Shown here: positions 2,323 through 19,008 of the stretch, piece after piece
Layout: each line of letters starts with the position of its first letter
How positions within the stretch are numbered: the stretch's first letter is position 1
Origin: Clostridia bacterium
GTDB taxonomy: Bacteria; Bacillota; Clostridia; Oscillospirales; CAG-272
NCBI GenBank assembly: GCA_017467085.1
Contig: JAFTSW010000004.1
Coordinates: 1-34,561, forward strand
Length of the DNA stretch: 34,561 bases
Reading direction: 5' to 3'
Notes under the pieces: model-generated
Database searches by the model: none
Told to the model about the DNA's origin: nothing
Seen by the model: the letters and a program-made list of their open reading frames with translations, nothing else
Program-made: the position numbers and the translations under genes

Positions 2323-2338
2323 AGATTGTATCCTTTCT

Positions 2339-2367
2339 ACCCTTTTGCATTCCTGCCTGCAAGGGGT
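2339..2367 (-). promoter_or_regulatory. Leader hairpin in the glnN 5' UTR
   Basis: An imperfect inverted repeat (ACCCTTTTGCA / TGCAAGGGGT) can form a roughly 10-bp stem with one bulge and an 8-nt loop. It sits between the predicted transcription start (about 2380) and the ribosome binding site. No T-run follows, so it is not a terminator. Its role is unknown. It could stabilise the mRNA or bind a regulator; ANTAR-type antiterminators bind paired hairpins, but only one is seen. Confidence 0.4.
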
Positions 2368-2386
2368 ATATTTCTATTACCTTACT

Positions 2387-2415
2387 ATTATACCTATACT
2401 TGAAAAAAATGTCAA
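2387..2415 (-). promoter_or_regulatory. Sigma-A promoter of glnN
   Basis: On the minus strand, TTGACA (2410-2415) and TATAAT (2387-2392) are both full consensus with a 17-bp spacer. The -35 is overlapped by an inverted repeat CTTGA-N8-TCAAG (2399-2416) that could be an operator. That is a suggestion from symmetry only. Confidence 0.9.
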
Positions 2416-2422
2416 GAATGAA

Positions 2423-2451
2423 TTGACTTTTCTTTGCCAATATGCTATCAT
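2423..2451 (+). promoter_or_regulatory. Sigma-A promoter of the LUD-domain gene
   Basis: TTGACT (2423-2428) and TATCAT (2446-2451), each 5 of 6 to consensus, are separated by 17 bp. This -35 lies only 7 bp from the -35 of the divergent glnN promoter. Confidence 0.8.
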
Positions 2452-2506
2452 TTTATTGCAAAAAGCCCCTTCTTTGAACATTTTTATCACAAGGATGGAT
2501 ATACAT

Positions 2507-3115
2507 ATGGAAAATTTTGAAGCCGTCAAAAGAAATTTGGAGAAAAGGCATTTTGAGGTTTATCTTGCCAAGAGCAGTGACGATGCCCGCACCTTAGCGC
2601 TTTCTCTCATTCCCAAGGGCAGCTCCGTCACCTGGGGCGGCACGATGACCCTTCACGAAATCGGACTTTCCGATGCCTTAAAGGCAGAGGACTACCACGT
2701 GTATGACCGTGACCTCGTTCCCCCTTCGGAAAAGCAGGCTTTTGTTGAGGCACATTTCTTTTCCGACTGGTTTATTATGAGCGCCAATGCTATTACGGAG
2801 GACGGAGAGCTTTTGAATATGGACGGCAGAGGCAATCGGGTCGCTGCCTTAATCTACGGTCCAAAAAACGTGCTTGTCATTGCGGGCAAAAACAAGCTGG
2901 TGAAAACCTTTGAGGATGGCGTTCGCCGTGTTAGAGAATACGCTGCTCCCAAAAACGCCCAGCGCTTCTCTATCGCCACGCCCTGCAAGCAATGCGGAGA
3001 ATGCAAGGACTGCCTTTCTCCCGACTCCATTTGCGCCCAGTTCGTCAGAACGCGCCTTTCCTTCCCCGCAGGAAGAATCAAGGTCATTCTGGTGGACGAG
3101 GATTTGGGATATTGA
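2507..3115 (+). CDS. LUD-domain (DUF162, LutC/YkgG-like) protein
   Basis: This 202-aa protein belongs to the LUD superfamily, named for lactate-utilisation subunits LutB and LutC. The hallmark is the NAITEDGELLNMDGRGNRVA stretch (about residues 94-112). A C-terminal cysteine cluster follows (Cys160, 163, 166, 169, 176), a C-x2-C-x2-C-x2-C pattern suited to an Fe-S cluster or metal. Stand-alone LUD proteins of this size are frequent in Clostridia and mostly uncharacterised. No lutA or lutB partner is present, so a lactate-oxidation role is not supported here. I chose ATG 2507 because AAGGATGG lies about 9 nt upstream. An in-frame ATG at 2495 has no such site, and the open frame running further upstream crosses the promoters. 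It is a single-gene unit ended by a hairpin terminator. Confidence 0.85.
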   Translation: MENFEAVKRNLEKRHFEVYLAKSSDDARTLALSLIPKGSSVTWGGTMTLHEIGLSDALKAEDYHVYDRDLVPPSEKQAFVEAHFFSDWFIMSANAITEDGELLNMDGRGNRVAALIYGPKNVLVIAGKNKLVKTFEDGVRRVREYAAPKNAQRFSIATPCKQCGECKDCLSPDSICAQFVRTRLSFPAGRIKVILVDEDLGY

Positions 3116-3185: not shown

Positions 3186-3228
3186 AAGCAATCGCCTTGG
3201 TGCGCACATACGCACCAAGGCGATTTTT
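3186..3228 (-). terminator. Strong terminator of the seven-gene ABC/DUF5696 operon (bidirectional)
   Basis: A perfect 15-bp inverted repeat (3190-3204 and 3211-3225) with a 6-nt loop starts about 14 bp beyond the last stop of the operon. T-tracts flank both sides (TTTTT at 3224-3228; AAAAA at 3183-3187, read as T on the minus strand). It can therefore stop transcripts from either direction in this convergent junction. Confidence 0.92.
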
Positions 3229-3239
3229 GGTTACATAGA

Positions 3240-4322
3240 TTATCCAACCAAGCCGGAACGCTCGATACCCTGTACCAGATATTTCTGGCAGAAGAGGTAT
3301 ACGACAACCAGAGGCATAATAATCATAATGCCCGCTGTGTTTTCAATAGCGGTTTCATATAATTCCTTGGCAGCGTAACCACCGCTCATTTCCAAGGAAG
3401 GAGGAATGTTCTCCCAAATGTTCGGCATCAGCCAAACATCGTTGTTCAAGAAGAATACCTTGGTGTAGAAATCGTCCGTCCACTGCCACGAGAAGGAGAA
3501 CAGGAAAATCGTTATCATCATCGGGACAGAAAGCGGCAGAATGATTTGGAAGAAGGTACGGAAGGTATTAGAGCCGTCCACATACGCAGATTCCTCCAGC
3601 TCATCAGGCACGCCACGGAAGAACTGACGCATCATAAAGATGTACAATCCGTTCTTGAAGCCTAAGCCGCAGATGGAAAGGACAATCAAGGGGACGAAGG
3701 TATCCATTGCGTTGGGCGTAAAGCCGTTGGCAAAGCCTCCGTTAAAGATACCCGTGACAAACTTAAACAGACCCGGGATACCAAGTGCCTGAACGCCACC
3801 GAGGTCAAAGCGACGGAAATGCGCCCACATAGAGAGCTTCAAGGTCTGGTGAGGCACAATCATCGTGAAGATAACCAGTGCGAACAACAGCGTATTACCC
3901 TTGAATTTGAACTTGGCAAGACCGTAACCAATCAAGCAGGTCACGAAGGTTTGCAGAATTGCCACCACCAGGGACAAGAGCGTGGTGTTGAGGAATGCCT
4001 CAAAATAGCGGTTTTCCACAGCAATCGCCTTGTAGATATTGAGGGTGAAATTCTTAGGAATGATATTAACGGTAGGGTCTACAAAATCGGAGGGGGACAT
4101 GAAGGAGCCCGCGATTTTGGAGAAGAAGGGGAACAAAATGACGTAGGAAATACCAATCATCAAAATCAGACGGAAGATATACCAAACGACATTCTTCAGG
4201 AAGTAAACAGAGAAAACTTTTTTCTTCATCCGTTCGAGCCAAGGCGTTTTGCCTTCAAAGTCAACACGGATTCTTTTTTTGCTTTCTTTCATAACTCTTA
4301 CGTTATTTTGCGTGTTATCCAT
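3240..4322 (-). CDS. Carbohydrate ABC transporter permease, MalG type (second pair)
   Basis: This is an inner-membrane permease subunit of a CUT1-type sugar importer. It has 360 aa with a hydrophilic N-terminal tail of about 40 residues and then roughly six membrane helices. The cytoplasmic EAA loop that docks the ATPase is clear: ELEESAYVDG...IILP (about 241-263). It is longer than typical MalG homologues (about 280 aa), owing to the tail and to a glycine-rich periplasmic insert near 175-205. The start has AAGGAGG about 10 nt upstream, and 14 bp separate it from the preceding permease. It is the last gene of the operon. Its partner is the MalF-type subunit at 4337-5398. The substrate is unknown. 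Confidence 0.92.
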   Translation of the reverse strand: MDNTQNNVRVMKESKKRIRVDFEGKTPWLERMKKKVFSVYFLKNVVWYIFRLILMIGISYVILFPFFSKIAGSFMSPSDFVDPTVNIIPKNFTLNIYKAIAVENRYFEAFLNTTLLSLVVAILQTFVTCLIGYGLAKFKFKGNTLLFALVIFTMIVPHQTLKLSMWAHFRRFDLGGVQALGIPGLFKFVTGIFNGGFANGFTPNAMDTFVPLIVLSICGLGFKNGLYIFMMRQFFRGVPDELEESAYVDGSNTFRTFFQIILPLSVPMMITIFLFSFSWQWTDDFYTKVFFLNNDVWLMPNIWENIPPSLEMSGGYAAKELYETAIENTAGIMIIMPLVVVYLFCQKYLVQGIERSGLVG

Positions 4323-4336
4323 GCTCTTTTACCTCC

Positions 4337-5398
4337 TTAATCCCGTTTTTGATAGAAAATGAACGAGCGCAGCAATAAGAAAATAAGTCCGATAATTGCT
4401 ATAATAACTAAGAAGTAAATCCAGGACATTGCCGTGGACAGCTCCTTGCCCGTTTCATAGGTCTGCGCAATATACGACATAACGATATTACTGTCGGAAG
4501 TAAAGGAGTCAATAATCGTATATACCGCGTTAACCAAAATCATAGGGCTAATCATCGGGAAGGTTATCTTCCAGAAGGTTTCCCACGCCGTTGCACCCTC
4601 AATGCTGGACGCCTCGTAAATCGAGGGAGAAATACCCTGCAAGCCACCCAAGAAAATCAACATCTGAACACCGGAGCGGTTTACAATATTGAAGATGTTG
4701 TTTACAGCGCCTGCTACGTATTCTACGAGCCCCGAGCCAATCTTGATGCCTTGGAAAAGCTTCTCAATATCCATCGCGGAAACGATTTCCGAAGCACCGC
4801 CCGTGGCACCCGTGGAAATACCTCCGTCGGCATTACCCATCTGCGTAGAAAGAATATCTGCTGCGTTGATAGCTTCCATCAAGCCCGTAGACAAAATAAC
4901 AGGCACGAAGAAGATAGCACGGAATGCCGCACGGCCGACCATTCTCTGGTTCAGAATGATAGCAACGAAGAGGGAGAAAATCAGAATCATAGGCGTGTCA
5001 ACAACCAGCTGCTGAATACCCGCAACCAGCTTTTGCACAAACTGGGAATCCTCCAAAAGCGCTGCGTTATAGAACGCCAAGCCCTTCCATTGTACCGAAC
5101 CCGTCACAAGATCCAACTGGAAGAAGGAATAGCAAATAGAGTCCAGGATAATAGGAAGATAAATCAAGACGAAGCCCGCAACGAAGGGCAATACGAAGAA
5201 CCAGCCCTCGCGCGCCTTCTTCTTGTCCAGAGAGGCAGGGCGCTTTTTCTTGGCAGGAACCGCAAGGGCGCCGCCCTCCGAGGGGACCTTGCCCCCCGTG
5301 AAGCGTGCCTTAACGGTTTGGAACAGATTGACCGTTCCCGTTTTTACCGTTTGAAAGAGTGCGGAAACTTTTTCTTTTACAGTATTCAAAAACTTCAT
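4337..5398 (-). CDS. Sugar ABC transporter permease, MalF type (second pair)
   Basis: This 353-aa membrane subunit pairs with the MalG-type permease that follows. The N-terminal 60 residues are cytoplasmic and lysine-rich and contain a short duplication (LFQTVK at about 14-19 and 25-30). Membrane helices begin near residue 66. The EAA motif is IYEASSIEGA...ITFP (about 260-281). A Gly/Ser/Ala-rich extracytoplasmic loop (about 185-240) is larger than in most MalF-like permeases of Gram-positives. The start is supported by AGGAGGAAA. The gap to the upstream DUF5696-like gene is only 19 bp, so cotranscription is likely. No ATP-binding subunit is encoded nearby. Confidence 0.92.
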   Translation of the reverse strand: MKFLNTVKEKVSALFQTVKTGTVNLFQTVKARFTGGKVPSEGGALAVPAKKKRPASLDKKKAREGWFFVLPFVAGFVLIYLPIILDSICYSFFQLDLVTGSVQWKGLAFYNAALLEDSQFVQKLVAGIQQLVVDTPMILIFSLFVAIILNQRMVGRAAFRAIFFVPVILSTGLMEAINAADILSTQMGNADGGISTGATGGASEIVSAMDIEKLFQGIKIGSGLVEYVAGAVNNIFNIVNRSGVQMLIFLGGLQGISPSIYEASSIEGATAWETFWKITFPMISPMILVNAVYTIIDSFTSDSNIVMSYIAQTYETGKELSTAMSWIYFLVIIAIIGLIFLLLRSFIFYQKRD

Positions 5399-5417
5399 TT
5401 CAAAATTTCCTCCTCTC

Positions 5418-8400
5418 TCAATTATTGGCGTCTACGAGCGTATTTCCGTTAATCTGACGGAAGCCGTAGGAAGACACCACGAATGCTTCGCCTCCGTTGA
5501 CGCCCTCGAGTTTTACCTCAACGTCAAAGAGGTTGTAGTTGATAACGAAACGCACGGTTTCGGTGCCCTTCTGATAGGTAACCATTACCAGGTCATCGGA
5601 GTTTACCGTATAAAGCGTAGCCTTATAATCGGCGCCATCCGTTGCGAAGGAATCGGTTACAGAGGGCAAGAACTCAATGCCTTCAATGGCGTTCATCGTC
5701 AGAACGAAAGCGCCGGTAGCATCACCCTTAAAGGAATTTGCGGCGGCAAACTCCTCAATGAGCTTAATTTGCTTAGCAGTGGGCTCATAGCCGTCGCCAA
5801 GAATGGCGTCAAGGCTGGCAATCAGCGCAGCCGCATCCACGACAACACCGACCTTGATGCCGTCATAAGTGGGAAGAGGCTGACCGGACTGCTTGATTTG
5901 CCATACGGCAGCAACATTCGCCTTATCCGTTTCAGTCAGCTCCTCGCCAAGGCGATACGTGATATCAGCCTCAACGGCAGCCAAGGAAGCGGCACCCGCA
6001 TTGATGGCGTTGACAGCCATCTGCTTCACATTCAGCTCACGAAGAGCCGTTCCCTTCAAGCTTGCATACTTGTTGGTAAGGAAGCTTGCCAGTCTGTCAT
6101 TGATTTTTTCCAGCTCCTTATCGCGCTCCCCTTCTGCGGTTACACGCTCACCAATCAAGAACTTGTGGTCCTCGATGGTGTAGGTCTGCAAAGCAGCAAG
6201 GGCATTATTCAAGGTGCCGTATTTTTCAACGACGTCATTGAACCAAATGTCAAAGCGCAAGGAATAATACTGGCTCAGGTAGCTATCCTCCTTCATCAAA
6301 TTGGTGTTTTGATAGGAGAGGAGGTAGTAGAGGTACGCGCCGTTTTCAATGGACTTCAACAGCTGATAATCGCCATCTCCCGCCTCATTGATAACAGAGC
6401 CTGCGTACTGCTCATAGCCGTGCAAAACGATTCCCCAGAAAGGAACGGTCTTGCTTTCAAAGGTATACTTACTGGAATCAATAGGAGCACCGAGCAGGTG
6501 GTCCAGATAGCGGAGCGTATATATGTTGCCGCCCTCGGACATCACGGAACCATAGCTCTTTTCCAGATAAGACAGGGTTTCGGAAATTGTGCCCTTTGCA
6601 TCTTCTCTGTTCTGCGGATTGTCCTCGTTAAAGTCGGAGTTCAAATCGCTTGCCATGGTGGATACGGAGATACCTATGGGGTTGAACTTGGAGAACTTCG
6701 CAGAGAATTTCTCTACCAGGCTGAAAATCGAAGAGGGAGAGATGCAAATATCGAAATAAGAAGAGAATTCCTGGTATACGGGGTCATAGATTTGCTTGGA
6801 GCAATATCTGTCATCAACGGCCTTAGCGGCGTTTCGCTTCAGATTGATACCGCCTTCACCCAAATACGAAAAGTCGAACTCAGGATATACGCCGAAGCCT
6901 TTCTCGGTCGCATGGGCAATCAGGTCAGTGAAGCCGCCCTTGCCGCCCAAGGCTCTTACCCATTTCAGCTTCTTAGGATACTTAGCAATCAAGCCACCGT
7001 TTGCGTAGCCTGTCAGCTTGAAATTGATGTTTTTCACACCTTTCAGAGCCAAGGCGTCGTACATTTTTTCTACGTCTTCAAAGGTAGTCAAGGGAGTGTC
7101 CACCGTTACGGGGAAGGACAAAACCTTTTTAACCGTCTTGATGGAGCCAAAGGTTTCAATGTAAATGGGTGTATCCGCTTTCACATCAGCTTCGGTCAAG
7201 GCAGCGATGTAACCGCCCGAAACCAGGTATTCGCGATAAGCCTTTGCCATACCGACATAGCTTGCCTCGTAATAGGGGATGTCATAGCTTACAGTAGAGG
7301 CTGCTGTCTCCAATACACTCTTATCGCTTTCATCGTGAAGCATCACGATTTTCAAGCGATAGGTGCCCTCATACTTCTTATCCGAAACAACCGTCCATTC
7401 GGTGTTGTCACCGACGGAGATAGCGTCCATCATATTGTACGTATCGTAGGGACGGGGGAAGAAGGTGGTATAGGCAGAAGCATAGTAATGGTTGTTAGAG
7501 GCGAAGGATACCGAAATATCGGCAAGAGAGTCGCCCTCTTCCATAATGGCGATAAAGCCGCCATCCTTACCGTTTTTGTTTTGCTGAATACCGTAAACAG
7601 GCATACGGATAATCTCAGAATGCTTTGCGTCCTCATCAATGGAGTAGTACGCATAGTCCTCACCGTACACGGCGGCAGTCAAATCCACAACCGTACTGTC
7701 TGCTTCGTTGGTGGAGGAGTAGAATTCCTTAAATTCAACCAAAGCGCCGCTTCCGTCCGGGAAGAACACATACCCCTCGTTATTCAGGTTCCCTGCTCCA
7801 AAATACTGAAGCATTCTGACATATTGCAGGGTGTAAGTGCTTTCATCAAAGCGAATGCTGGTTGCGGGTAAGGAAATCGCCAAACCGTCCTTTTGCAGGG
7901 TATATTCCAACGCCATGCGGAAGACGGGATTTTGCTGGTTAATCTGAACGTAACCGGTTCTGCTGTTGATTTCGTCCAAAAGCTCCTGGTCAAAATCGGT
8001 CAGATAGGTACGAATAGCGTTTTCCAGATACGCCTTCTCCATTTCGGTTATAACGGTGTTTTTATCACCGAAGGAACCGTCGGACAGAATGTAGTAAACG
8101 CTGTGGTCATCGGTAACCTCTTGCCCGTTGATAGAAACGATAACGTTTCTCTCAAGTGCCTCTGTTTCATCAATGACTACTTCCTCATATTGCACCTGCC
8201 CAGCATCTAAGGCCTCCTTAAATGCCTCATCCGTTACGTCGTAAACGGTGCCATCCGCTACCGTGATGTTACCGAATTTCTTGTATTGCTTACGAATTTC
8301 CTCGATGTCGGCAAGCTGCATCTCGACAGCATTCCATTCCACGAACCAAATTTGCATACGGTCCACTTCATTTTTAATGGCTGCGTACACCTTGGAATCT

Positions 8401-9017
8401 ATGGTAAATTCTGCCTCAATCTCATCTCTCTTGTCAATCAAGGGAATCAACACATGCGTACGGAAATCGTCTGCTACAACAGCACCGGGCAAAAGGTAAG
8501 TGGTGCTTAAGCGACCCATAACGTACTCAACGCGAATACCGTTGGTAATGTTCTTGACGGTAATCTGGTTGCGGTTAGCAGCTTCCACAAAGCTATAGAA
8601 GGTTTTTTCCTTATCCTCGTTGTCGCGGAAGGAAACCTCAATCTGAGAAAGCAGACGTGTGATAGTATTATCGGTAGAATACTTATCGCTACCCTTCTTC
8701 AGATTGGTGAAATCATAGGGATTGGAGGTTAAAATCTCACCAGTGGCAATGTTTTTGTAAGCGACCTCGCCCGTAAAGCGATTGCAGTACAGCTCATAGC
8801 CGTACTGACGCGCCATCAAAAGCATATTTTTATCACCCGCAAGCTTCTCCGCTCCGGTTTTATACGCTTGGTTAAATGCAAAGTCTAGCGCTTCGAGATA
8901 GTTGCCGGTTTCAGGCGTTCCGCCGATGATTTCAGCGGAAACATTGACAGTAATCAAAGAGCTCAAGCAACCAACAAGCATCAAAAGAGCAAGAACAGAC
9001 GAAATTATTCTTTTCAT
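5418..9017 (-). CDS. Large exported DUF5696-like protein, possible glycosidase-like TIM barrel
   Basis: This is a 1199-aa exported protein. The N terminus is a signal peptide (about 1-28). It contains LVGC at 14-17, a fair lipobox, and also an alanine cleavage site near VSAE, so lipoprotein versus secreted is unresolved. The FPDGSGALVEF stretch (about 419-429) and the neighbourhood match what I recall of DUF5696 proteins encoded beside sugar permeases in Clostridia and Paenibacillus. Residues 1-600 look beta-rich. Residues about 620-860 alternate helices with hydrophobic strands and aromatic/acidic loops (YPEFDFSYLG), as in glycoside-hydrolase-like TIM barrels. The C terminus (about 960-1199) has helical then beta segments. 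No catalytic pair can be assigned by eye. Its position between the two transporter halves suggests it processes or binds the imported glycan outside the cell; this is inference. Confidence 0.75.
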   Translation of the reverse strand: MKRIISSVLALLMLVGCLSSLITVNVSAEIIGGTPETGNYLEALDFAFNQAYKTGAEKLAGDKNMLLMARQYGYELYCNRFTGEVAYKNIATGEILTSNPYDFTNLKKGSDKYSTDNTITRLLSQIEVSFRDNEDKEKTFYSFVEAANRNQITVKNITNGIRVEYVMGRLSTTYLLPGAVVADDFRTHVLIPLIDKRDEIEAEFTIDSKVYAAIKNEVDRMQIWFVEWNAVEMQLADIEEIRKQYKKFGNITVADGTVYDVTDEAFKEALDAGQVQYEEVVIDETEALERNVIVSINGQEVTDDHSVYYILSDGSFGDKNTVITEMEKAYLENAIRTYLTDFDQELLDEINSRTGYVQINQQNPVFRMALEYTLQKDGLAISLPATSIRFDESTYTLQYVRMLQYFGAGNLNNEGYVFFPDGSGALVEFKEFYSSTNEADSTVVDLTAAVYGEDYAYYSIDEDAKHSEIIRMPVYGIQQNKNGKDGGFIAIMEEGDSLADISVSFASNNHYYASAYTTFFPRPYDTYNMMDAISVGDNTEWTVVSDKKYEGTYRLKIVMLHDESDKSVLETAASTVSYDIPYYEASYVGMAKAYREYLVSGGYIAALTEADVKADTPIYIETFGSIKTVKKVLSFPVTVDTPLTTFEDVEKMYDALALKGVKNINFKLTGYANGGLIAKYPKKLKWVRALGGKGGFTDLIAHATEKGFGVYPEFDFSYLGEGGINLKRNAAKAVDDRYCSKQIYDPVYQEFSSYFDICISPSSIFSLVEKFSAKFSKFNPIGISVSTMASDLNSDFNEDNPQNREDAKGTISETLSYLEKSYGSVMSEGGNIYTLRYLDHLLGAPIDSSKYTFESKTVPFWGIVLHGYEQYAGSVINEAGDGDYQLLKSIENGAYLYYLLSYQNTNLMKEDSYLSQYYSLRFDIWFNDVVEKYGTLNNALAALQTYTIEDHKFLIGERVTAEGERDKELEKINDRLASFLTNKYASLKGTALRELNVKQMAVNAINAGAASLAAVEADITYRLGEELTETDKANVAAVWQIKQSGQPLPTYDGIKVGVVVDAAALIASLDAILGDGYEPTAKQIKLIEEFAAANSFKGDATGAFVLTMNAIEGIEFLPSVTDSFATDGADYKATLYTVNSDDLVMVTYQKGTETVRFVINYNLFDVEVKLEGVNGGEAFVVSSYGFRQINGNTLVDANN

Positions 9018-9040
9018 TTTTTTCTCTCCTTCTCTTACTC

Positions 9041-11344
9041 TTATACTCGATAGCTTATCTCCGTTACGATAGAGGTAACGAAGGTCAGCATTTTACCAAC
9101 AAGGCTGGAAAACAGAAATCCAACGAACATAATGATTGCCATACCAAGGATGGTTCCCAAGCAAGTAATCAAATTCTTGCCGAAGGAATAACCGTGGGTA
9201 ACCATAGTGCCGAAGAAAATAAGCAACAATGCCCAAACATAGCCGACAACCGTAATCATCGAAACGATGGCCGCTTCCTCGAAGGTCACCACATTAGAAA
9301 GAATAGTGGAGATAATCAAAAGGAAGGGCAAGGGAGCCAGCGCATAGGACGAAGCGATGAAGACATCCTTAAAGGAGCCCTCGCCGTCGAACAGCGTTGT
9401 CAAGCACCAGTTTGCGATAACCCAAAGGGCAAAGGGCAAAATCACAGAAATAAGCTGTGCGAAAATAGTGGAATATTCGCCCGTGGGGTTCATTATGTAA
9501 CCCGTACCGATGGACTGGTAGTAGAAGCCGACAACAACAAGACCGAGAATAGTCAAGGCGGCGCGTACAGAGCCACGGCGCTCGTGCTTCAAATCCCAGA
9601 AGCCATCGAAGGGGTGGAAAATAATGTGGAATACATACATGAGCTCCTGCACATAGGTTTTTCTACCGACACCGAGGAGCGCAACCTTATCGTTGTACTT
9701 CTTAGCAAAGCGGAACAGGAAGGAAATGCCTACAACCACGAGAACGATGACAATAGGAATGAGAATGAACCAGTCAGCCAACCAATCCTTTCGGATTTCC
9801 TTGTAGGCATCAGACCAGTTTTCATCGTCATACGCTGCGGACAGATATTCCATCGACAGCTCGTAGCCCGTCTTGTCATATTCTCTGTTGATTTTCAGCT
9901 CTTCCCCATCGGGCTTTCCGTTAACGGTATGCTTCACTACCACATTGTTTTCATAAACGGCAACATCGCTTTCTTTGTAATAGGACTGCCCGTCTACGGA
10001 AACGAACACAGCATCACCCTGTCTGGCATAGGCCTTACCTACGCCGATATAGGCAGAGTCGAAGTTGTTGTTAAAACGGAGAACCTCCAGCCAAGCCGTA
10101 ACGGCGGCACCGTAGGTACGGTTGTTCTCGCACGCCAAGGCAGCAATCAAAAGGTCGCCGTATTGGGTTCTCTTATAAACAGTAAAGGTGTTAGCCTTTT
10201 TATCCAGCACCAAAAGCTTGCCGTCCTGGTAGGTCAATTCGGAGATTTCCTGCATATTACCCAGCTGAATACCCTTATCACCGAAGGCGTACAGCAATAC
10301 GCCGTTCTGGTCATAGGTGAAGATTTTACTTCTCTTGAAGTCAGCGATAGACCAGGTGCCCTCGTCGCCAATCGCAACGTCAACGATGTTGGAGGCGCCC
10401 GTAGGAGCGTTCAGGTTGGTGGAGAAGCTCTGTACGTCAACCTCACCGCCGGGTCCGAAGAAGCCGTTACGCTTCATAACCTCGTCACCGTTGGAGTTCA
10501 GCTTCTTGACGGCAGCATAGTCGGCGCTATTGTTGTCAATAGAGCCCTGCTGCTCACCGCTGTCCACATAGCTGTTACTGGTTACGTAGATAAAGCCTTC
10601 CTCGTCGATGGTGATGTTATTGAAGGGCTTGGACAGGTTCTGCACCTGAGAGTTACGCTGCTCCTCAGTCTGGAAACGGCGCCAGATGATGTCAAGGATA
10701 TTGTAGGAGGCGTTCTGCGCACCGATAAAGCCGGTAAACAGACCCTCGCTGGTCATTACAATAACGCCCTCGGAGGTTTCGGAGGATACAACGTAAATCT
10801 TGCCGTACTGGTCAACAGCCATAGAGATGGGCTTGTATGCCGTGTCAGTTCCAAAGAGCGTGCCGTAAGGCTTTTCAATGGTTCTGACAAAGCTTCCCTC
10901 TTTATCGAAGATAACGATACGCGCCTTGGCAGTATCGCAGACGTAGATGAATTCGTCATTGACGAACACACCCGCGCAACCGCTCAAGGAGTCATTAAAT
11001 CCGTTATTATCGAAGGACTGCAGAACAAACTTGTAGCTGTAATTGACCCCCTCTAACACAACGATTCTGTTGTTACTGGGGTCAGCGATGTACACATTTC
11101 CGTCCTTGTCAACCTCAATATCAGTGGGAGAACTGAAGTTGGCAAAGCCTGCAGGCGCATTGGGAATGTCCATAAAGCCAACGGAACGGATGGGCGTGTA
11201 TGCCGAGGGAGAATACAGGGCAAATCCCTCGGAGGAGTAGGTGTAGGTCTGATACGGCTCTTGCGCAAAGGAGGCAAAGGAGCCAAGCATCATCACCATC
11301 ACCAGCATCAGAAGCAGGAGAGTAACGATTTTATTCTTTTTCAT
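9041..11344 (-). CDS. NHL beta-propeller / TPR-like / Yip1 membrane protein
   Basis: This 767-aa protein has a signal peptide (about 1-27). Repeated NHL-type blades follow (about 65-395; e.g. PTDIEVDKDGNVYIADPSNN at 73-92), forming an extracytoplasmic propeller. Next is a TPR-like helical segment (about 398-520), then a membrane anchor (about 525-546) and a Yip1-type multi-helix domain (about 565-760, starting HIIFHPFDGFWDLKHERRG). The helical segment is interrupted by a hydrophilic beta-rich insert (about 443-490). This architecture recurs, as far as I know, in Clostridia and Paenibacillus operons with DUF5696 proteins and sugar permeases, but I know of no tested function. A plausible role is a membrane-anchored scaffold or sensor for the transporter. 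The start has AAGGAGGG upstream; the preceding permease ends 12 bp away. Confidence 0.82.
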   Translation of the reverse strand: MKKNKIVTLLLLMLVMVMMLGSFASFAQEPYQTYTYSSEGFALYSPSAYTPIRSVGFMDIPNAPAGFANFSSPTDIEVDKDGNVYIADPSNNRIVVLEGVNYSYKFVLQSFDNNGFNDSLSGCAGVFVNDEFIYVCDTAKARIVIFDKEGSFVRTIEKPYGTLFGTDTAYKPISMAVDQYGKIYVVSSETSEGVIVMTSEGLFTGFIGAQNASYNILDIIWRRFQTEEQRNSQVQNLSKPFNNITIDEEGFIYVTSNSYVDSGEQQGSIDNNSADYAAVKKLNSNGDEVMKRNGFFGPGGEVDVQSFSTNLNAPTGASNIVDVAIGDEGTWSIADFKRSKIFTYDQNGVLLYAFGDKGIQLGNMQEISELTYQDGKLLVLDKKANTFTVYKRTQYGDLLIAALACENNRTYGAAVTAWLEVLRFNNNFDSAYIGVGKAYARQGDAVFVSVDGQSYYKESDVAVYENNVVVKHTVNGKPDGEELKINREYDKTGYELSMEYLSAAYDDENWSDAYKEIRKDWLADWFILIPIVIVLVVVGISFLFRFAKKYNDKVALLGVGRKTYVQELMYVFHIIFHPFDGFWDLKHERRGSVRAALTILGLVVVGFYYQSIGTGYIMNPTGEYSTIFAQLISVILPFALWVIANWCLTTLFDGEGSFKDVFIASSYALAPLPFLLIISTILSNVVTFEEAAIVSMITVVGYVWALLLIFFGTMVTHGYSFGKNLITCLGTILGMAIIMFVGFLFSSLVGKMLTFVTSIVTEISYRV

Positions 11345-11356
11345 ATGTTTCCCTCC

Positions 11357-12232
11357 TTAATCCTTCATACCGGAAGAGCCCATCGTTTCAATAATCTGGC
11401 TCTGGCTCAAAACGAATACCGTGATAGGTACCAGCATCATAACAACCGTCGCAGCGGCAGAAGCACCCGCACGGGCAATACCCGCCGTTACAACCTGCGA
11501 AATGGCGTAGTTGAAGGTTTTCAACTGCTCCGAGTGAATGTAAATGGAAGCACCGGAGTTCCAAAGTCCCTTAAAGGACTCGATAATCAAGGTCAGCCAA
11601 GCAGGCTTAACCATAGGCATCGCAATAACCCAGAAGGTACGGAACTCAGAGGCACCGTCCAGACGGGCGGATTCCAGAACCGCATCGGAAACGGTAGATT
11701 CCATAAACTGCTTCATCAAGTAAAGACCCATTGTGCCTGCTAAAGCGGGAACGATTAAAGCCAAATAGGTGTCAATCATGTTCAAGGCGGTCATAATGAT
11801 AAAATTGGAAAGCTGGTTAACCGTTTGATGGAACATCAAGGACAAAACGACAATTTGGAAAAGAATGTTTCTTCCCGGGAACTTGATTTTTGCCAAGGCA
11901 TAAGCTGCCATGGAAGCAAGCAAAAGGTTACCGAAGGTACCTGTCAAGGAAATGAACACCGTGTTAAAGATATAACGGGAGAACGGTACCCAGGATTCGT
12001 TCATCAGCTGGAACAAATCCGAAAAGTTCATTAAGGTCGGGCTCTTTACAAGAAATCTCGGCGGGAACATCCACAGCTCGTCAAGAGGCTTCAAGGACTG
12101 CGAGATAACGTAAAGCATCGGTATAAACATGAATGCGCCCAAAATTACCAAAAGAACGGTAATGCCCGCATCGCCACCTGCGGAACGGTTAAGGACGACT
12201 TTATGACGGCGTGTTCTTAATTTTGCACTCAT
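11357..12232 (-). CDS. Carbohydrate ABC transporter permease, MalG type (first pair)
   Basis: This CUT1-family inner-membrane subunit has 291 aa from the chosen start, the usual MalG length. It shows six hydrophobic helices and the EAA loop LESARLDGASEF...IAMP in the last third. I start it at ATG 12232, one base after the upstream gene's stop, because AAAGGTGGG lies about 8 nt before it. The longest open frame would begin at 12271 inside the preceding gene without a good ribosome site. The near-zero spacing implies translational coupling to the MalF-type partner. It belongs to the seven-gene operon; the substrate is unknown. Confidence 0.93.
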   Translation of the reverse strand: MSAKLRTRRHKVVLNRSAGGDAGITVLLVILGAFMFIPMLYVISQSLKPLDELWMFPPRFLVKSPTLMNFSDLFQLMNESWVPFSRYIFNTVFISLTGTFGNLLLASMAAYALAKIKFPGRNILFQIVVLSLMFHQTVNQLSNFIIMTALNMIDTYLALIVPALAGTMGLYLMKQFMESTVSDAVLESARLDGASEFRTFWVIAMPMVKPAWLTLIIESFKGLWNSGASIYIHSEQLKTFNYAISQVVTAGIARAGASAAATVVMMLVPITVFVLSQSQIIETMGSSGMKD

Positions 12233-12233
12233 A

Positions 12234-13178
12234 TCACTGTCCCACCTTTGAAAGCGCTTTTTTGATGACAATGTTACAGGTCATCATGATTAAGAATAAG
12301 AATACTGCGATTGCGGATGCATATCCGACCTCGTAGCGCTGGCCGGCAAAGTCATCCAGATGGTGCATGATGGTGTGCGCCGCATAGTCTACCGAGGGGA
12401 AGCCCGCCAAGGCAGTAACGATAGCACCGAAGCCGAAGGACTGGGTAATCGAAAGCACGGCACCGAACATCAGCTGAGGACGCATGGAAGGCAGGGTTAT
12501 GTACCAAAGCTCCTGCCAACGGTTCTTGATACCGTCCACGGCGCCTGCCTCATACTGCGAGCGGTCAACCGTTTGAAGACCTGCAATGAAGGACAGGAAC
12601 GCGGTTCCCAGAGAGGTCCACAGGGCAACGACGATACAAAGCGGCATTACCCAGCTGGCGTTCTGGAAGAACATAATGGGGGTATCAATAATGTTCAGGT
12701 TCAACAGCGTACCGTTTACCCAACCGTAGGAGTCACTGGAGAACAGAATCGTCCAAACGATGTAAACAGAGCCGGAAATGGAGGGAGCGTAGAAAATCAA
12801 AGTAACAACCGCACGGATTTTCGGCTCCAGCTCGTTAATGAACCAAGCAACCAGGAAGGACAAAAGATAGGAAACAGGTCCCGTGATGGCTGCAAAAATC
12901 AACGTATTTTTACAAGCAATGATAAAGATGTCGTCCTCCAGGAACAGGTGGATATAGTTGTTCATACCAACCCAAACGGGAGGCTCAAGCATATTAAACT
13001 CCGTAAAGCTGAAAAAGATAGACAGCATAACGGGGAAAACGGTAAACACGAAAAACAGTAGAAAGAAGGGAGCGCACATCAGATAGGCAACTTTATTGCG
13101 TTTCATCTCTTTCCATGTCCATTGCGCCATTGTCATATCCTTGCGGGATACAGGACGCTTTGCTTCATTCTGTGACAT
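12234..13178 (-). CDS. Sugar ABC transporter permease, MalF type (first pair)
   Basis: This 314-aa permease has an N-terminal cytoplasmic tail of about 30 residues, the first helix near 32-55, and the EAA motif YEAGAVDGIKNRW...ITLP. The length and pattern match MalF-like subunits of Gram-positive sugar importers, which lack the long MalF P2 loop. AAAAGGAG precedes the ATG. It is the first membrane gene after the solute-binding protein (38-bp gap), so this pair is the most likely direct partner of that protein. The C-terminal codons contain a cre-like GAAAGCGCTTT palindrome, which I take as coding coincidence. Confidence 0.93.
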   Translation of the reverse strand: MSQNEAKRPVSRKDMTMAQWTWKEMKRNKVAYLMCAPFFLLFFVFTVFPVMLSIFFSFTEFNMLEPPVWVGMNNYIHLFLEDDIFIIACKNTLIFAAITGPVSYLLSFLVAWFINELEPKIRAVVTLIFYAPSISGSVYIVWTILFSSDSYGWVNGTLLNLNIIDTPIMFFQNASWVMPLCIVVALWTSLGTAFLSFIAGLQTVDRSQYEAGAVDGIKNRWQELWYITLPSMRPQLMFGAVLSITQSFGFGAIVTALAGFPSVDYAAHTIMHHLDDFAGQRYEVGYASAIAVFLFLIMMTCNIVIKKALSKVGQ

Positions 13179-13216
13179 GTACTTTTTCTCCTTTTAATCT
13201 TAAAGTATCGCTTGGA

Positions 13217-16200
13217 TTACTGGTTGTTCTTCTCTAAGCGGGCTTCCTCAGGGGTCTGACCCGATTCAAGAGTAGGTAATCCAAACTCTTCTCTCTTTCG
13301 TGTAATTTCTTGGTTGATGGCGTTGATGTAACTCTGCAGTGCCTCAACCGCGTCCGCGCCGTCATTGTAAGCATCCAAGAAAGCAAATTTGGTGTAACGG
13401 GCGATAATGTAGCTTCCGGGGTAGTTGGGAATAGCGGAAAGGTTCTCAAACTGGGCAAGCAGACTTGCAAGCTCGGAGGCACTCCAGGACAGCTCAGCCA
13501 ATGCCTGAATGTTTGCGGAGTCATACTTGGCGGCAGGGCCAACCAAGGCAACCATTTCGTTACCGTACTGTGCCTGCACAGAGCCCTGTGCCTGCCACTT
13601 CATATATTCCCAAGTGGCTTCGGGAGCTTCGCATCCGTACAGCATAACCGTCGCGGTTACCGTTACGAAGGAGTCATTGTTTACGGTTCCGTCATCGCGA
13701 ACCATACCGGGAATATTGGTAAATGCCCAAAGTCCGCGAATTTCGGTAGCAAACACGACCAACGTGTTATAAGTAGTTGCGTAGTCGGCAATCAAAATCG
13801 GAATTTCACCAGTTCTCAAACGGTTAGGTCCGTCAAATGCCGTGGGGAAGGAATAGTCAGTGTAGAGTCTGGAGCAGAACTGGAATGCGTTCAGAGCAAT
13901 ATCGGTATCAAGACCGATTGCGGCGCCCGCATAGTCGGGGTCATCGGTGTATCTCCAGAGGTTACCGCCAAACTGATAGAGGAATACGTTAATGGCAAAT
14001 TCATAGCCAAGACCAATCTGCATGTTGTTTGCCTGCAAGGTGGGGATGGTTGCCAAAACTTCGTCCCAGGTTTCGGGAACGTCAATCTGAAGCTCTGCCA
14101 GAACGTCACGTCTGTAGAACATCATCTGGATACTCGCCTTCTCGGGCAAGCCATAGCTCTTTCCGAAGAGGCTGATAGGAATCATTGTGGCTGCGTTAAA
14201 GGAAATCTTAGAGGAGTCAACGAGCTCGTCTTTTTCATTGTAGTAGAAGGTGGTGCGGTCAACGATTTTATCCTTCTCTGTTTCCGCAACCTCGTTACCG
14301 TTGGCATCAACCGGAACGTTTGTTCTGTAATAGCTGTAGCCAAGAGCATCCTTGAAGCCGTCAAGTCCCTCAATGCTCACGATGGCGTTACGGATAGCGT
14401 AGTTGATAACGCTTGCCGCATCAAGACCGATATAGGAATCAGGTCCCTTCTTTGCCAAAACGGAGGGGAGCAGTGTTGTCGCCGTAACCAGCTTTAGGTT
14501 AACCGCGATATTGTTCTTGGGGGTAAAGTCATTGTTGATAAGGTTACGCCAAATCTGGGACTGGTCACGTCCGTATGCAATCCAAACCTCGATGGTGGGA
14601 ATTTCTGCCTCGCTATCGGTAACGCCCATTGCGTTATAGTCAACGAAGAAGCTGGCGATAAAGGAGGTAAACTCATACCAGAAGGACTGGAAGATATTGG
14701 CGTTTGCCTTAGGCATAGCAGCCTCAGGGGACTGGATGGTGTAATAGTCAACCGTCAAGGACTGTGCCTTCGCGCTATTAATCCAAGTACCGAGAGTACC
14801 GATGTAGGATTTCAGGTTAGCAAGGTTAGGCGCGATTTCGTCCTCGTAGGTACCCATTCTTTCCAGCAAACGGTAGATGGTTTCCAGGGTCGCGATATTG
14901 GAGCCGGAGGTTCCGCAGATAGCAACCATGTTGTCTGCCTGCTGCTTCAGAATCGTCGCCTGAATCAAAAGCTGACGAATAGTAGAGGGCATTACGCTGG
15001 AGAAGTTATAGTCGCGGTACTGGTCGGGAGAAGCGCCCGTCAGCTTCAGGATTTCAAGATAGCAATCGTTGATAGCAGACAGAGAGCTTTCAATGGTTTC
15101 CAGAATGGCGGCCATGTCGCCAAGACCAACCTCCATACACAGGGTGTAGGTAACGCCTTCCTCAAAGTAGAAGGAGAGCGTATCTTCTCCGTTATTCAAG
15201 GCACCAACCTGCCAGTTGTTGGCATAGTTGAAGCGCGCATAGTAGCACTCGTCATAAGGTACGGAAGGCGTTCCGTCCTCATAACCGTACTCGCCGCCCG
15301 CAAGCTTGATAACACGGGTGGTGAACATACCCTGCAGAGCAGTCTGCTTGAAACGGGCTACAATATTATATATACCGCTCTCGGACACCTGGAAGGTATA
15401 GGATGCCCACTGTCCGTTGGTAGAATAGCTGGAAGCACCAATGGTATTGATTTTCTGAGAGAAGGAATCAATAGGAGCGGTCAAGGAAGACGAACGGTCG
15501 TTGGCAGGATATACTGCGGTATCGGATACAAAATCGGGGGTTTCAGCGCGAAGATATACAATTTCGGCATTGGGAGAAGCATTGGTATAGCCCTTCTCTG
15601 CCCATTCAGCCTTGTAATCCTCAAGGGACTTCAGCTCCTCCACGGGGAAAAGCGTGATAGAGGTGATAACGAGGGGCTCCTTCGTGCCAACCAAAGAAAG
15701 GGAGCGGGTCCCTGCCTTGAAGAAGAATTGGAAGGGCTCGTTGTAGAAGCCGTCGATATCGGTGCATTCATATGTACGCTTTGCGGACACCTGGCTGATG
15801 TCAGGACGAATGTCATTCCCGTTGACGTCAGCGTCAAAGGTGTTATTGCCGTTTTCATCCTTCTTCACATAATCATATTTCCAGACCTTGGAGAATGCCA
15901 AGGAGCGTGCCTCATCAAAGGGAACGACGCCGTCCAAATAGAGCTTGCGCTCGATGCCGGAGTTTTTCCCTTCAACGGTGTGATACTCAATGCGGATACC
16001 GTAAAGGCCCTCTTGCGCTTCGGAAATATCAAAGGTCCAGGTAACCTCGCCAACTTCAGGCAGGTACAAGCCCGTCTGTCCGTTGGGAAGCTCATACTCG
16101 TACACCTTATTTTTCAAATCGGTGCTATTGAGCAAGTCCTTTGCCGTATAGTTAAGAACGGGAATAGGGATTTCATTCTCTCCCTTCTTCGCCTGGTCCT

Positions 16201-16372
16201 TAATGCAGCCTGCCAGATAGTTTCCGTAGGATTCAGCAGTCAAGGACGCCAAAAGCTCAGAGTAAGAGTCCTCCGTTGCACCAGATGCGGCAGAAGTGCT
16301 TACGCCTCCGACTCCTACCAGCATACACAGGGCAAGAAGAACCGCCACGAGTTTTGTCCAACGTGTCTTCAT
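13217..16372 (-). CDS. Giant extracellular solute-binding protein with N-terminal carbohydrate-binding-like domains
   Basis: This 1051-aa exported protein is the first gene of the operon. A signal peptide (about 1-29, cleavage near STSAA) has no convincing lipobox. Residues about 75-245 form a beta-rich module (GEVTWTFDISEAQEGLYGIR) and about 300-420 a second one (NGQWASYTFQVSESGIYNIV); both look like galactose-binding-fold/CBM6-type modules. A helical stretch (about 420-540) follows. The C-terminal part (about 592-1030) reads as a family 1 solute-binding fold, with VLAELQIDVPETWDEV and a later WEYMKWQ segment. Ordinary sugar-binding proteins have 400-550 aa, so this is about twice the usual length. 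Without a lipobox, its tether to the cell is unclear. It probably captures an oligosaccharide or glycan for the adjacent permeases. AAGGAAG precedes the ATG. Confidence 0.88.
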   Translation of the reverse strand: MKTRWTKLVAVLLALCMLVGVGGVSTSAASGATEDSYSELLASLTAESYGNYLAGCIKDQAKKGENEIPIPVLNYTAKDLLNSTDLKNKVYEYELPNGQTGLYLPEVGEVTWTFDISEAQEGLYGIRIEYHTVEGKNSGIERKLYLDGVVPFDEARSLAFSKVWKYDYVKKDENGNNTFDADVNGNDIRPDISQVSAKRTYECTDIDGFYNEPFQFFFKAGTRSLSLVGTKEPLVITSITLFPVEELKSLEDYKAEWAEKGYTNASPNAEIVYLRAETPDFVSDTAVYPANDRSSSLTAPIDSFSQKINTIGASSYSTNGQWASYTFQVSESGIYNIVARFKQTALQGMFTTRVIKLAGGEYGYEDGTPSVPYDECYYARFNYANNWQVGALNNGEDTLSFYFEEGVTYTLCMEVGLGDMAAILETIESSLSAINDCYLEILKLTGASPDQYRDYNFSSVMPSTIRQLLIQATILKQQADNMVAICGTSGSNIATLETIYRLLERMGTYEDEIAPNLANLKSYIGTLGTWINSAKAQSLTVDYYTIQSPEAAMPKANANIFQSFWYEFTSFIASFFVDYNAMGVTDSEAEIPTIEVWIAYGRDQSQIWRNLINNDFTPKNNIAVNLKLVTATTLLPSVLAKKGPDSYIGLDAASVINYAIRNAIVSIEGLDGFKDALGYSYYRTNVPVDANGNEVAETEKDKIVDRTTFYYNEKDELVDSSKISFNAATMIPISLFGKSYGLPEKASIQMMFYRRDVLAELQIDVPETWDEVLATIPTLQANNMQIGLGYEFAINVFLYQFGGNLWRYTDDPDYAGAAIGLDTDIALNAFQFCSRLYTDYSFPTAFDGPNRLRTGEIPILIADYATTYNTLVVFATEIRGLWAFTNIPGMVRDDGTVNNDSFVTVTATVMLYGCEAPEATWEYMKWQAQGSVQAQYGNEMVALVGPAAKYDSANIQALAELSWSASELASLLAQFENLSAIPNYPGSYIIARYTKFAFLDAYNDGADAVEALQSYINAINQEITRKREEFGLPTLESGQTPEEARLEKNNQ

Positions 16373-16410
16373 GTGTGTCTTCCTTCCAGTTTTTTGTGAA
16401 TTGATAAGCC

Positions 16411-16445
16411 ACTATGGCACAAAAAGGGCATAAATCGGCCATAGT
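16411..16445 (-). promoter_or_regulatory. Leader hairpin upstream of the solute-binding protein gene
   Basis: A perfect 8-bp inverted repeat, ACTATGGC (16411-16418) and GCCATAGT (16438-16445), with a 19-nt loop lies in the predicted 5' UTR, downstream of the promoter and about 40 bp before the start codon. There is no T-run, so it is not a terminator. It may be an RNA element or a DNA operator. Confidence 0.4.
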
Positions 16446-16462
16446 TAAATTATCTCCTTTAT

Positions 16463-16491
16463 ATAATAACATTTCTTTCTTTGGTTGTCAA
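16463..16491 (-). promoter_or_regulatory. Sigma-A promoter of the seven-gene ABC/DUF5696 operon
   Basis: On the minus strand, TTGACA (16486-16491) and TATTAT (16463-16468) are separated by 17 bp. The expected transcript start is near 16456, giving a leader of about 80 nt before the solute-binding protein. No other convincing promoter was noticed within the operon. Confidence 0.87.
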
Positions 16492-18042: not shown

Positions 18043-19008
18043 ATGTATTATATCGGTGTTGATCTTGGCGGTACGAATATTGCCGTCGGTATCGTAGACG
18101 AAAGCTTCAAAATCATTTCCAAGGGAAGCACCCCCACTTGCCCCAACCGTGACGGCGAGCTGATTATCAAGGATATGGCACTTTTAACAGAAAGACTGTT
18201 AAAGGAGGCGTCCATTCCCCTTTCCGAGGTTGCCTACGTAGGAATTGCGTCCCCCGGCTCCGTGGACCCCGACAAAGGAACCATCGAATACGCCAACAAC
18301 CTTCCCTTTTCTCAGTTCCCTATCGCAAAATGCTTCCAGAAATACCTGGCAATTCCTAAGGTATACGTGGAGAACGATGCCAATGCGGCGGCTCTGGGCG
18401 AGGCGCTGGCAGGCGTTGCTAAGGGAACGAAGAATTCCGTTATGATTACCCTCGGCACAGGTGTTGGCGGCGGTATCATCATTGACGGAAAGGTATATTC
18501 CGGCTTTAATCACGCGGCAGGCGAGCTTGGTCACACCGTTATTCACTTTAACGGACGCCCCTGCTCCTGCGGAAGAAAGGGCTGTTGGGAGGCATATTCC
18601 TCTGCCACCGCCTTGACTGCCTTGACGAAGGAAAAGATTGCCGAATGCAAGGAAAAGGGCATTCACACCCTTTTGATTACCGAATTCAACAACACCGGCA
18701 AGGTGTCCGCCCGTACCGCATTTGCGGCTATGAAGAAGGGCGACAAGGCTGCCAAGGAGGTTGTTGACTACTATATTGAAAATCTTGCCTGCGGCATCAC
18801 CAACATGATTAGCACCTTCCGCCCCGAGATTCTTTCCATTGGCGGCGGTATTTGCAACGAGAAGGACTATTTGCTCCAGCCGTTGCTGAAAATCGTGTAC
18901 GGTGAGGCTCTTCCCTGCGACGGTGACAACCAGACCAAAATCAAAATTGCCGCCCTGGGCAACGATGCCGGTATTATCGGTGCCGCTTGTCTTGGTATGC
19001 AAAATTAA
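18043..19008 (+). CDS. glk: ROK-family glucokinase
   Basis: This cytoplasmic enzyme phosphorylates glucose (or a related hexose) with ATP, feeding imported or hydrolysed sugar into glycolysis. It has 321 aa. The N-terminal phosphate-binding motif is GVDLGGTN (5-12). The catalytic aspartate is in ENDAN (Asp112). The ROK signature and zinc site are His164 and Cys174/176/181 in CSCGRKGCWEAY. There is no N-terminal helix-turn-helix, so it is a kinase rather than a ROK repressor. AAAGGAG precedes the ATG. It is monocistronic, with a consensus promoter and a tight terminator. It lies about 1.7 kb beyond the sugar-uptake operon and divergent from mnmA. A link to the imported sugar is plausible but not shown. 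N-acetylmannosamine or fructose kinase activity cannot be excluded. Confidence 0.92.
   Translation: MYYIGVDLGGTNIAVGIVDESFKIISKGSTPTCPNRDGELIIKDMALLTERLLKEASIPLSEVAYVGIASPGSVDPDKGTIEYANNLPFSQFPIAKCFQKYLAIPKVYVENDANAAALGEALAGVAKGTKNSVMITLGTGVGGGIIIDGKVYSGFNHAAGELGHTVIHFNGRPCSCGRKGCWEAYSSATALTALTKEKIAECKEKGIHTLLITEFNNTGKVSARTAFAAMKKGDKAAKEVVDYYIENLACGITNMISTFRPEILSIGGGICNEKDYLLQPLLKIVYGEALPCDGDNQTKIKIAALGNDAGIIGAACLGMQN

Follow-up and report, generated by a model that had tools for sequence, protein, structure and literature searches.

CUT1 importers that draw on a shared MsmX/MsmK ATPase have been described in Bacillus subtilis, Streptococcus pneumoniae, and Caldicellulosiruptor bescii; in the excerpts available of one account (PMC8579813), they combine MalF/MalG-type permeases and a sugar solute-binding protein (SBP) with one lone ATPase that is encoded outside the operon. 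Here, we describe a cassette of seven genes with the same ingredients, found on a 34,561-nucleotide stretch of DNA from a Clostridia bacterium (Oscillospirales; CAG-272). This stretch, positions 1 to 34,561 of contig JAFTSW010000004.1 in assembly GCA_017467085.1, is referred to in its full length as the window. The cassette differs from the importers named above in its two permease pairs, its giant SBP with two repeats, its two additional exported or membrane partners, and its fixed gene order, and it is not named in the portions of the C. bescii literature examined.

The same order (SBP, F1, G1, NHL and/or YIP1, DUF5696, F2, G2, with F and G denoting the permeases) is present on the Butyrivibrio fibrisolvens plasmid pNP243 and on a Paenibacillus cellulosilyticus plasmid, the only matches among 72,556 plasmid records, where it has been annotated piecemeal. 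Unlike the cassette in the window, these copies come with extra SBPs and with either GH43 and a two-component system or ugpC, and in Butyrivibrio NHL and YIP1 are encoded separately. The Paenibacillus copy (L220) is accompanied by four LLM-class flavin oxidoreductases in addition to ugpC, a setting that hints at a cargo other than plain sugar there. We found no description of the cassette in the accessible parts of the openly licensed PubMed Central (PMC) literature. Its parts belong to known families; neither their fixed arrangement as a double cassette nor what DUF5696 does seems to have been described in the literature searched.

RESULTS

The cassette is conserved and in the family evolves in two halves

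Seven minus-strand open reading frames (ORFs) run from 16372 to 3240 and encode, in transcription order, the giant SBP, permeases F1 and G1, an NHL-Yip1 protein, a DUF5696 protein, and permeases F2 and G2. On balance, sequence comparisons incline us, with modest confidence, to read this cassette as a surface glycan importer with two pumps on a shared ATPase, in which the SBP would serve pair 1 (F1-G1) and the DUF5696 protein would serve pair 2 (F2-G2). Its features are as follows (aa, amino acids).

16463..16491, minus strand: promoter-like site, TTGACA-17-TATTAT with TG before the -10, 11 of 12 consensus positions (consensus match only)
13217..16372, minus strand: giant SBP, 1,051 aa, with a signal peptide-like start without lipobox, two tandem repeats, a linker, and a C-terminal sugar SBP domain
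15638..16060, minus strand: first N-terminal repeat of the giant SBP, about residues 105 to 245 (hhalign internal duplication; relatives match CBM35)
15098..15415, minus strand: second N-terminal repeat of the giant SBP, about residues 320 to 425 (hhalign; relatives match CBM6/GH115_C)
13217..14605, minus strand: solute-binding domain of the giant SBP, about residue 590 to the end (profile match to sugar SBPs)
12234..13178, minus strand: permease F1, UgpA/MalF type, 314 aa (Pfam and NCBIfam matches)
11357..12232, minus strand: permease G1, UgpE/MalG type (NCBIfam matches; ATG 12232 favored over TTG 12271)
9041..11344, minus strand: NHL-Yip1 membrane protein, 767 aa, with a signal peptide-like start, NHL propeller, hydrophobic segment, and Yip1 domain
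9122..9628, minus strand: Yip1 domain, residues 573 to 741 (PF04893, 6.9e-16)
5418..9017, minus strand: DUF5696 protein, 1,199 aa (PF18952, 1.5e-135), with a signal peptide-like start and lipobox-like LVGC
6156..7955, minus strand: DUF5696 domain (Pfam; part weakly like glycosidase barrels)
4337..5398, minus strand: permease F2, 353 aa (Pfam and NCBIfam matches)
3240..4322, minus strand: permease G2, 360 aa (Pfam and NCBIfam matches)
3190..3225, minus strand: intrinsic terminator-like hairpin, 16 pairs, T-rich tail (consensus match only; also listed on the plus strand)

Taking ATG 12232 as the start of G1, the successive intergenic gaps are 38, 1, 12, 23, 19, and 14 bp. The seven-gene layout with gaps under 40 bp, proposed in a first-pass annotation made from the sequence alone, thus holds: the ORFs lie where that annotation put them and the largest gap is 38 bp. 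A Pfam scan of the seven genes found no ATPase or regulator among them, in agreement with the same annotation, which had also suggested asking whether the genes are conserved together. They are. We assembled 141 loci from the taxonomic family, comprising the window, 60 loci chosen from listed matches (as were 30 phylum loci; mostly strong matches in both sets), and 80 named loci that are the best 80 of 543 confirmed; the sets of 60 and 80 overlap, with some contigs in both. The exact seven-gene order is kept in 124 of the 141, counting parts cut at an end; the remaining 17 are cut short where their contig stops, two of them with DUF5696 divided over two frames as well. Gaps and correlations were computed over 104 distinct family loci. 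Median gaps there are 39, 1, 13, 19, 16, and 14 bp, and gaps above 100 bp separate SBP from F1 in eight loci, F1 from G1 in one, and G1 from NHL in one. The ORF caller takes the first start, so some N termini are too long.

DUF5696 exceeds the curated cutoff in 264/295 family, 104/197 order, and 39/398 phylum-sample genomes, the phylum sample including the window's own genome. These are counts of genomes with a match and not of copies, few candidates having been scored in each genome. At E ≤ 0.001, a threshold that lets in weak cross-matches, the counts are 273/295, 109/197, and 46/398, and within the family this takes in 150 of 152 good genomes and 69 of 71 genera. Matches below 1e-20 occur in 258 of the 295 family genomes and in 147 of the 152 good family genomes. 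Most of the 80 named records are metagenome-assembled genomes (MAGs) labeled Clostridia, Clostridiales, Oscillospiraceae, or Ruminococcus, and many come from the guts of deer, goat, sheep, and other animals.

In the 104 distinct family loci, mirror-tree correlations of protein distances divide the cassette into {SBP, F1, G1} and {NHL, DUF5696, F2, G2}. Permeases correlate strongly within F1-G1 (0.84; 0.81 to 0.88 with 200 bootstraps of loci) and F2-G2 (0.80; 0.74 to 0.85), compared with 0.30 (0.21 to 0.43) for F1-G2 and 0.41 (0.30 to 0.54) for F2-G1, and rank correlations agree. These values lend no support to a mixed assembly of the two pairs, which the first-pass annotation had entertained. 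The DUF5696 protein follows pair 2 (0.82) rather than pair 1 (0.32), and the giant SBP follows pair 1 (0.82) more closely than pair 2 (0.58), the 2.5th percentile of the bootstrap difference being 0.15. At the same time, the giant SBP is closer to the DUF5696 half (0.60 with DUF5696, 0.67 with NHL) than F1 and G1 are (0.32 and 0.42).

In the importer that we propose, the permeases would form two heterodimers of CUT1 type. Each would have a large extracellular partner to itself, and the genome's one MsmX-type ATPase would power both. The two N-terminal modules of the giant SBP would catch a glycan, and its SBP domain would pass this on to F1-G1. For F2-G2, the exported DUF5696 protein would act as receptor or processor, and it may contain a barrel like that of glycosidases; NHL-Yip1 would be a membrane scaffold, propeller outside, that holds the parts together. 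The cargo may be a plant-type oligo- or polysaccharide, to which the sugar-type parts and the hemicellulose enzymes neighboring the cassette in relatives point; the family's own housekeeping neighbors are no help here.

The permeases and a lone ATPase

UgpA/UgpE/MalF/MalG models match all four permeases, every score lying below NCBI's equivalog cutoffs. F1, F2, and G2 exceed the cutoff of BPD_transp_1 (26.4 bits); G1, taken as 11357-12271, reaches 21.1 bits in the window scan and 26.5 in the genome search, and UgpE/MalG models also match this frame. Its listed TTG start at 12271 implies a 38-bp overlap with F1, while the ATG at 12232 falls 1 bp past the F1 stop. G2 is longer than G1 (family medians, 354 versus 291 aa). 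The EAA coupling-motif pattern is found in 155/156 G1, 150/168 F2, 141/164 G2, and 113/153 F1 proteins and is readable in all four permeases of the window.

The first-pass annotation had predicted a lone MsmX-type ATPase elsewhere in the genome. The window's assembly (1.94 Mb, 94% complete) indeed holds one OB_MalK (MalK/MsmX-type) ATPase, of 377 aa, unlinked and on another contig, and we infer that this protein would drive the cassette permeases. At least one OB_MalK ATPase is present in 20 of 21 genomes of the genus and exactly one in 13 of 21; the 12 genus ATPase loci inspected, of up to 3.2 kb (ATPase frame found in 11), contain no permease or SBP profile match. The assembly has 11 BPD_transp_1 matches, four of them in the cassette. 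Its three SBP_bac_1 matches are a protein beside a permease pair on contig C28, a Pot-type protein on C53, and the giant SBP, and its two SBP_bac_8 matches are the same C28 and C53 genes.

The giant SBP and the DUF5696 protein

Pfam returned no match for the 1,051-aa SBP of the window, N-terminal repeats included, and NCBIfam returned only a weak GanS SBP match. A profile of 63 giant SBPs searched against the PDB found sugar SBPs, the best solved relative of the SBP domain being Lin1841 of Listeria innocua (5ysb, E = 2.4e-22). Lin1841 is a beta-1,2-glucooligosaccharide SBP according to the available part of PMC12369401, and it differs from the giant SBP in being a 397-aa chain without the N-terminal repeats. 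Transfer of its cargo to the giant SBP was rejected, as the single window sequence is too distant from it (E = 0.0012 only).

Two tandem repeats precede the SBP domain (hhalign, 99.7%, E = 4e-26). In single relatives this region matches CBM35 (2e-6), CBM6 (3e-5), and GH115_C (7e-6); when the giant SBP was compared by profile with three CBM35/CBM6 domains, the probability was 7.7%. We call the N-terminal modules carbohydrate-binding module (CBM)-like because of the relatives' Pfam matches and the internal repeat, the profile comparison being weak. A hydrophobic segment at residues 563 to 580 is conserved ahead of the SBP domain, with F571, S574, and F575 invariant in 63 rows. The giant SBP is split into two frames at L171, by sequencing error or decay.

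Lipobox patterns were sought in both exported proteins. A lenient pattern is found in 15/108 family and 1/22 phylum giant SBPs, not in that of the window, and in 12/127 family and 10/30 phylum DUF5696 proteins; among ordinary SBPs used as a control it picks up only 11 of 27. A stricter pattern is found in 7/123 family and 0/22 phylum giant SBPs, 9/142 family and 8/30 phylum DUF5696 proteins, and 7/29 ordinary SBPs. The window's DUF5696 protein, with its LVGC, may be lipidated.

This DUF5696 protein matches PF18952 with 453.5 bits (curated cutoff, 25.6). Residues D421, D454, D795, R804, N831, N877, E891, and H951 are kept in at least 87% of 125 family and 30 phylum proteins, those outside 700 to 1,500 aa having been dropped. 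No solved relative was found by sequence: the best PDB profile match was an implausible one to interferon gamma (0.0067), and a search with a single relative returned nothing. DUF5696 lies in two frames at L158 and L211, through sequencing error or decay. No paper on DUF5696/PF18952 was found in the openly licensed PMC literature, and PHROGs gave no match for the giant SBP, NHL-Yip1, or DUF5696 protein.

The cassette recurs outside the family

For comparison with the family, 30 loci (L104 to L133) were taken from 25 genomes of the phylum sample that have strong DUF5696 matches. Among them, 21 distinct loci have each of the eight parts complete. NHL and Yip1 are often two genes, and SBP-F1-G1 is placed after G2 in five of the 30 (L118, L121, L123, L127, and L133). 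In 24 of the 30, the stretch retrieved includes one or more SBPs of ordinary size (on the other strand at L125; not always adjacent), compared with 4 of 60 family loci. The 82 neighboring proteins at phylum loci include SBP_bac_1 (17), GDSL lipase (4), GH26 (3), GH3 (2), and apiosidase (2), and GH30, GH2, and GH43 are also found near these cassettes. A glycoside hydrolase and a regulator adjoining the transporter, the criterion for a polysaccharide utilization locus, are present in some of these relatives; neither adjoins it among the window genes scanned.

All 37 of the 398 phylum genomes with DUF5696 below 1e-100 also match a model of the giant-SBP N-terminal part, even where the two halves are unlinked. 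The match is below 1e-100 in 36 of them and 4.8e-33 in G397, where it is cut at a contig start. Strong giant SBPs without DUF5696 occur in two phylum genomes (G398 and G448), both on contigs under 4.4 kb. Weaker N-terminal matches are found in seven more, five of which belong to a single phylum family, f19, with shorter relatives. There (in G301 and others, e.g., at L244), open frames of 396 to 561 aa are relatives of the giant SBP's N-terminal part; the protein at L244, the one f19 case inspected, is without an SBP domain. In f19, judging from these sequences, the N-terminal part may exist as a separate surface protein.

Surroundings and transcription signals

On one side, the cassette is followed by a convergent LUD-domain gene (2246-3115), and on the other it is preceded by mnmA, after which come the genes for glutamine synthetase III and a ROK-family kinase. 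The kinase gene (18043-19008) is on the opposite strand, two genes upstream of the cassette; its product is glucokinase-like, just under the NCBIfam cutoff, and could act on an imported sugar.

The strong terminator called in the first-pass annotation is recognizable as the 16-pair hairpin with its T-rich tail, which, being listed on both strands, may also serve the LUD-domain gene. The same annotation's promoter likewise corresponds to a promoter-like site at 16491-16463. Internal minus-strand sites with 10 of 12 consensus positions also lie at 15901 and 8437, so a single transcript for all seven genes is not proven. Between 2800 and 17200, both strands taken together, 25 promoter-like matches compare with 15.6 expected and 14 terminator-like matches with 16.6 expected. 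The leader between promoter and giant SBP gene (16372-16462) contains an inverted repeat, CTATGGC/GCCATAG, which could be an operator. A riboswitch in the leader was considered and rejected: the fold of 16365-16462 is no more stable than those of shuffled sequences (z = -0.86), and nothing in the window scores up to an Rfam gathering threshold.

Alternative explanations

Several observations weigh against the two-pump importer. Yip1 is clearly tied to neither pair (0.51 versus 0.61), the split is shallow in the 21 phylum loci, with 0.92 and 0.88 for like pairs against 0.77 and 0.78 for cross pairs, and correlated distances reflect shared history, not contact. Most giant SBPs have no lipobox-like site, which is odd for a monoderm receptor, although the low recovery of ordinary SBPs makes this a weak test. 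A second SBP or ATPase may be missing from our inventory, given the completeness of the assembly and the two SBP families searched. Finally, no glycosidase occurs among the 25 listed of 113 Pfam families in 117 genes flanking family cassettes, so the glycan link comes from distant relatives.

One possibility is that the cassette encodes a pair of independent importers, each with a cargo of its own and linked by cotranscription alone: SBP-F1-G1 and F2-G2, the latter with an SBP encoded elsewhere. The differing histories of the two halves in the family fit this idea, as do SBP-F1-G1 alone at L241 and L245, NHL/Yip1-DUF5696-F2-G2 without SBP-F1-G1 in the stretch at L110, and the ordinary SBPs near most phylum cassettes. 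We nevertheless consider it unlikely, in view of the giant SBP that accompanies every strong DUF5696 match in the phylum genomes, separated halves included, and of the gene order kept across the family. Nor was a spare SBP for F2-G2 found in the assembly among SBP_bac_1 and SBP_bac_8, the two families searched.

Equally doubtful is the idea that DUF5696 is an active exported glycosidase cutting polymer beside the pumps. In its favor, the Pfam DUF5696 model gives cross-matches to proteins of GH13 and of DUF6259 (E = 5.3e-6 to 0.0012), hhalign pairs the phylum DUF5696 alignment with DUF6259 at 90% (template of 2 sequences) and with GH13 at 82% (template of 4 sequences), and family and phylum proteins alike keep D421, D454, D795, and E891. 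The family alignment, however, reaches only 22% with DUF6259, and our own DUF5696 profile recovers none of the GH13/DUF6259 cross-matches, which speaks against that link. For the window protein, DUF5696 is the only family reported at E ≤ 10, with no match to the GH13 profile, although HMMER filters drop most weak matches. The catalytic nucleophile of GH13 is an Asp on strand 4; a low-confidence alignment places R at this position in L104 and, by transfer, S in the window protein. Moreover, conservation of E621 and D715 is confined to the family. Cleavage outside the cell, which the first-pass annotation had suggested, is not shown: DUF5696 is weakly glycosidase-barrel-like, and glycosidases elsewhere in the genome were not searched.

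A housekeeping role, with a polymer of the cell's own envelope or another widely needed solute as cargo instead of glycan food, strikes us as improbable. It would accord with how common the cassette is in the family, where most genomes carry it, genomes of 1.3 to 1.6 Mb among them, and with flanks that are often housekeeping: tRNA 2-thiouridylase is the most frequent of the 117 flanking family genes scanned (10), alanyl-tRNA synthetase accounts for 6, and mnmA is present in at least 13 of 111 distinct loci. The sugar families to which the SBP domain and permeases belong, the hemicellulose enzymes beside relatives outside the family, and the ROK (4), FGGY (2), and PfkB (2) sugar kinases among the same 117 genes argue against it.

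Least probable is that one giant SBP feeds both permease pairs, as the first-pass annotation proposed, with DUF5696 and NHL-Yip1 here taken as accessories of the SBP; this is the operon's sole SBP, no spare was found in the two families searched, and the proposal retains some appeal because F1 and G1 correlate less well with the second half than the SBP does, but the SBP evolves more closely with pair 1 while pair 2 evolves with DUF5696 and NHL, and an ordinary-size SBP is usually nearby outside the family, so that one shared SBP is not the best reading.

DISCUSSION

The cassette is present in most sampled genomes of a largely gut-derived Clostridia MAG family and recurs across the phylum, sometimes by hemicellulose enzymes, and for its three large proteins we found no assigned role. 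The two-pump importer that we favor may account for the way in which gut bacteria with small genomes and few sugar transporters obtain their food. If pair 2 does use DUF5696 instead of an SBP, this would be a new receptor type for ATP-binding cassette (ABC) importers.

For the NHL-Yip1 protein, the nearest parallel is an exporter. In the available part of PMC4887032, the Yip1-family protein YknW modulates the assembly of an ABC transporter, YknWXYZ, and is thus likewise a Yip1 protein acting as a transporter accessory; that system differs in exporting a peptide toxin, and an NHL part is not mentioned in the same text. BawG is perhaps a second precedent for Yip1 as an ABC accessory, going by the accessible portion of PMC10707071. 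Should NHL-Yip1 serve as a scaffold, Yip1 domains would gain a testable bacterial job.

A wider comparison can be drawn with the SusCD systems of Bacteroidota, in which surface glycan capture is coupled to uptake. No SusC/D family is among the Pfam/NCBIfam matches of the cassette, and the likeness that we propose is one of surface capture joined to uptake. Carried further, and here only tentatively, since we rate this stronger version as rather unlikely, the cassette might be a coupled two-pump surface machine of monoderm bacteria: capture by the two-module SBP, processing or holding of the glycan by DUF5696 as a glycosidase-like receptor that sits on NHL-Yip1 as its scaffold, and interdependent pumps on one ATPase would together form a functional counterpart of SusCD built from ABC parts.

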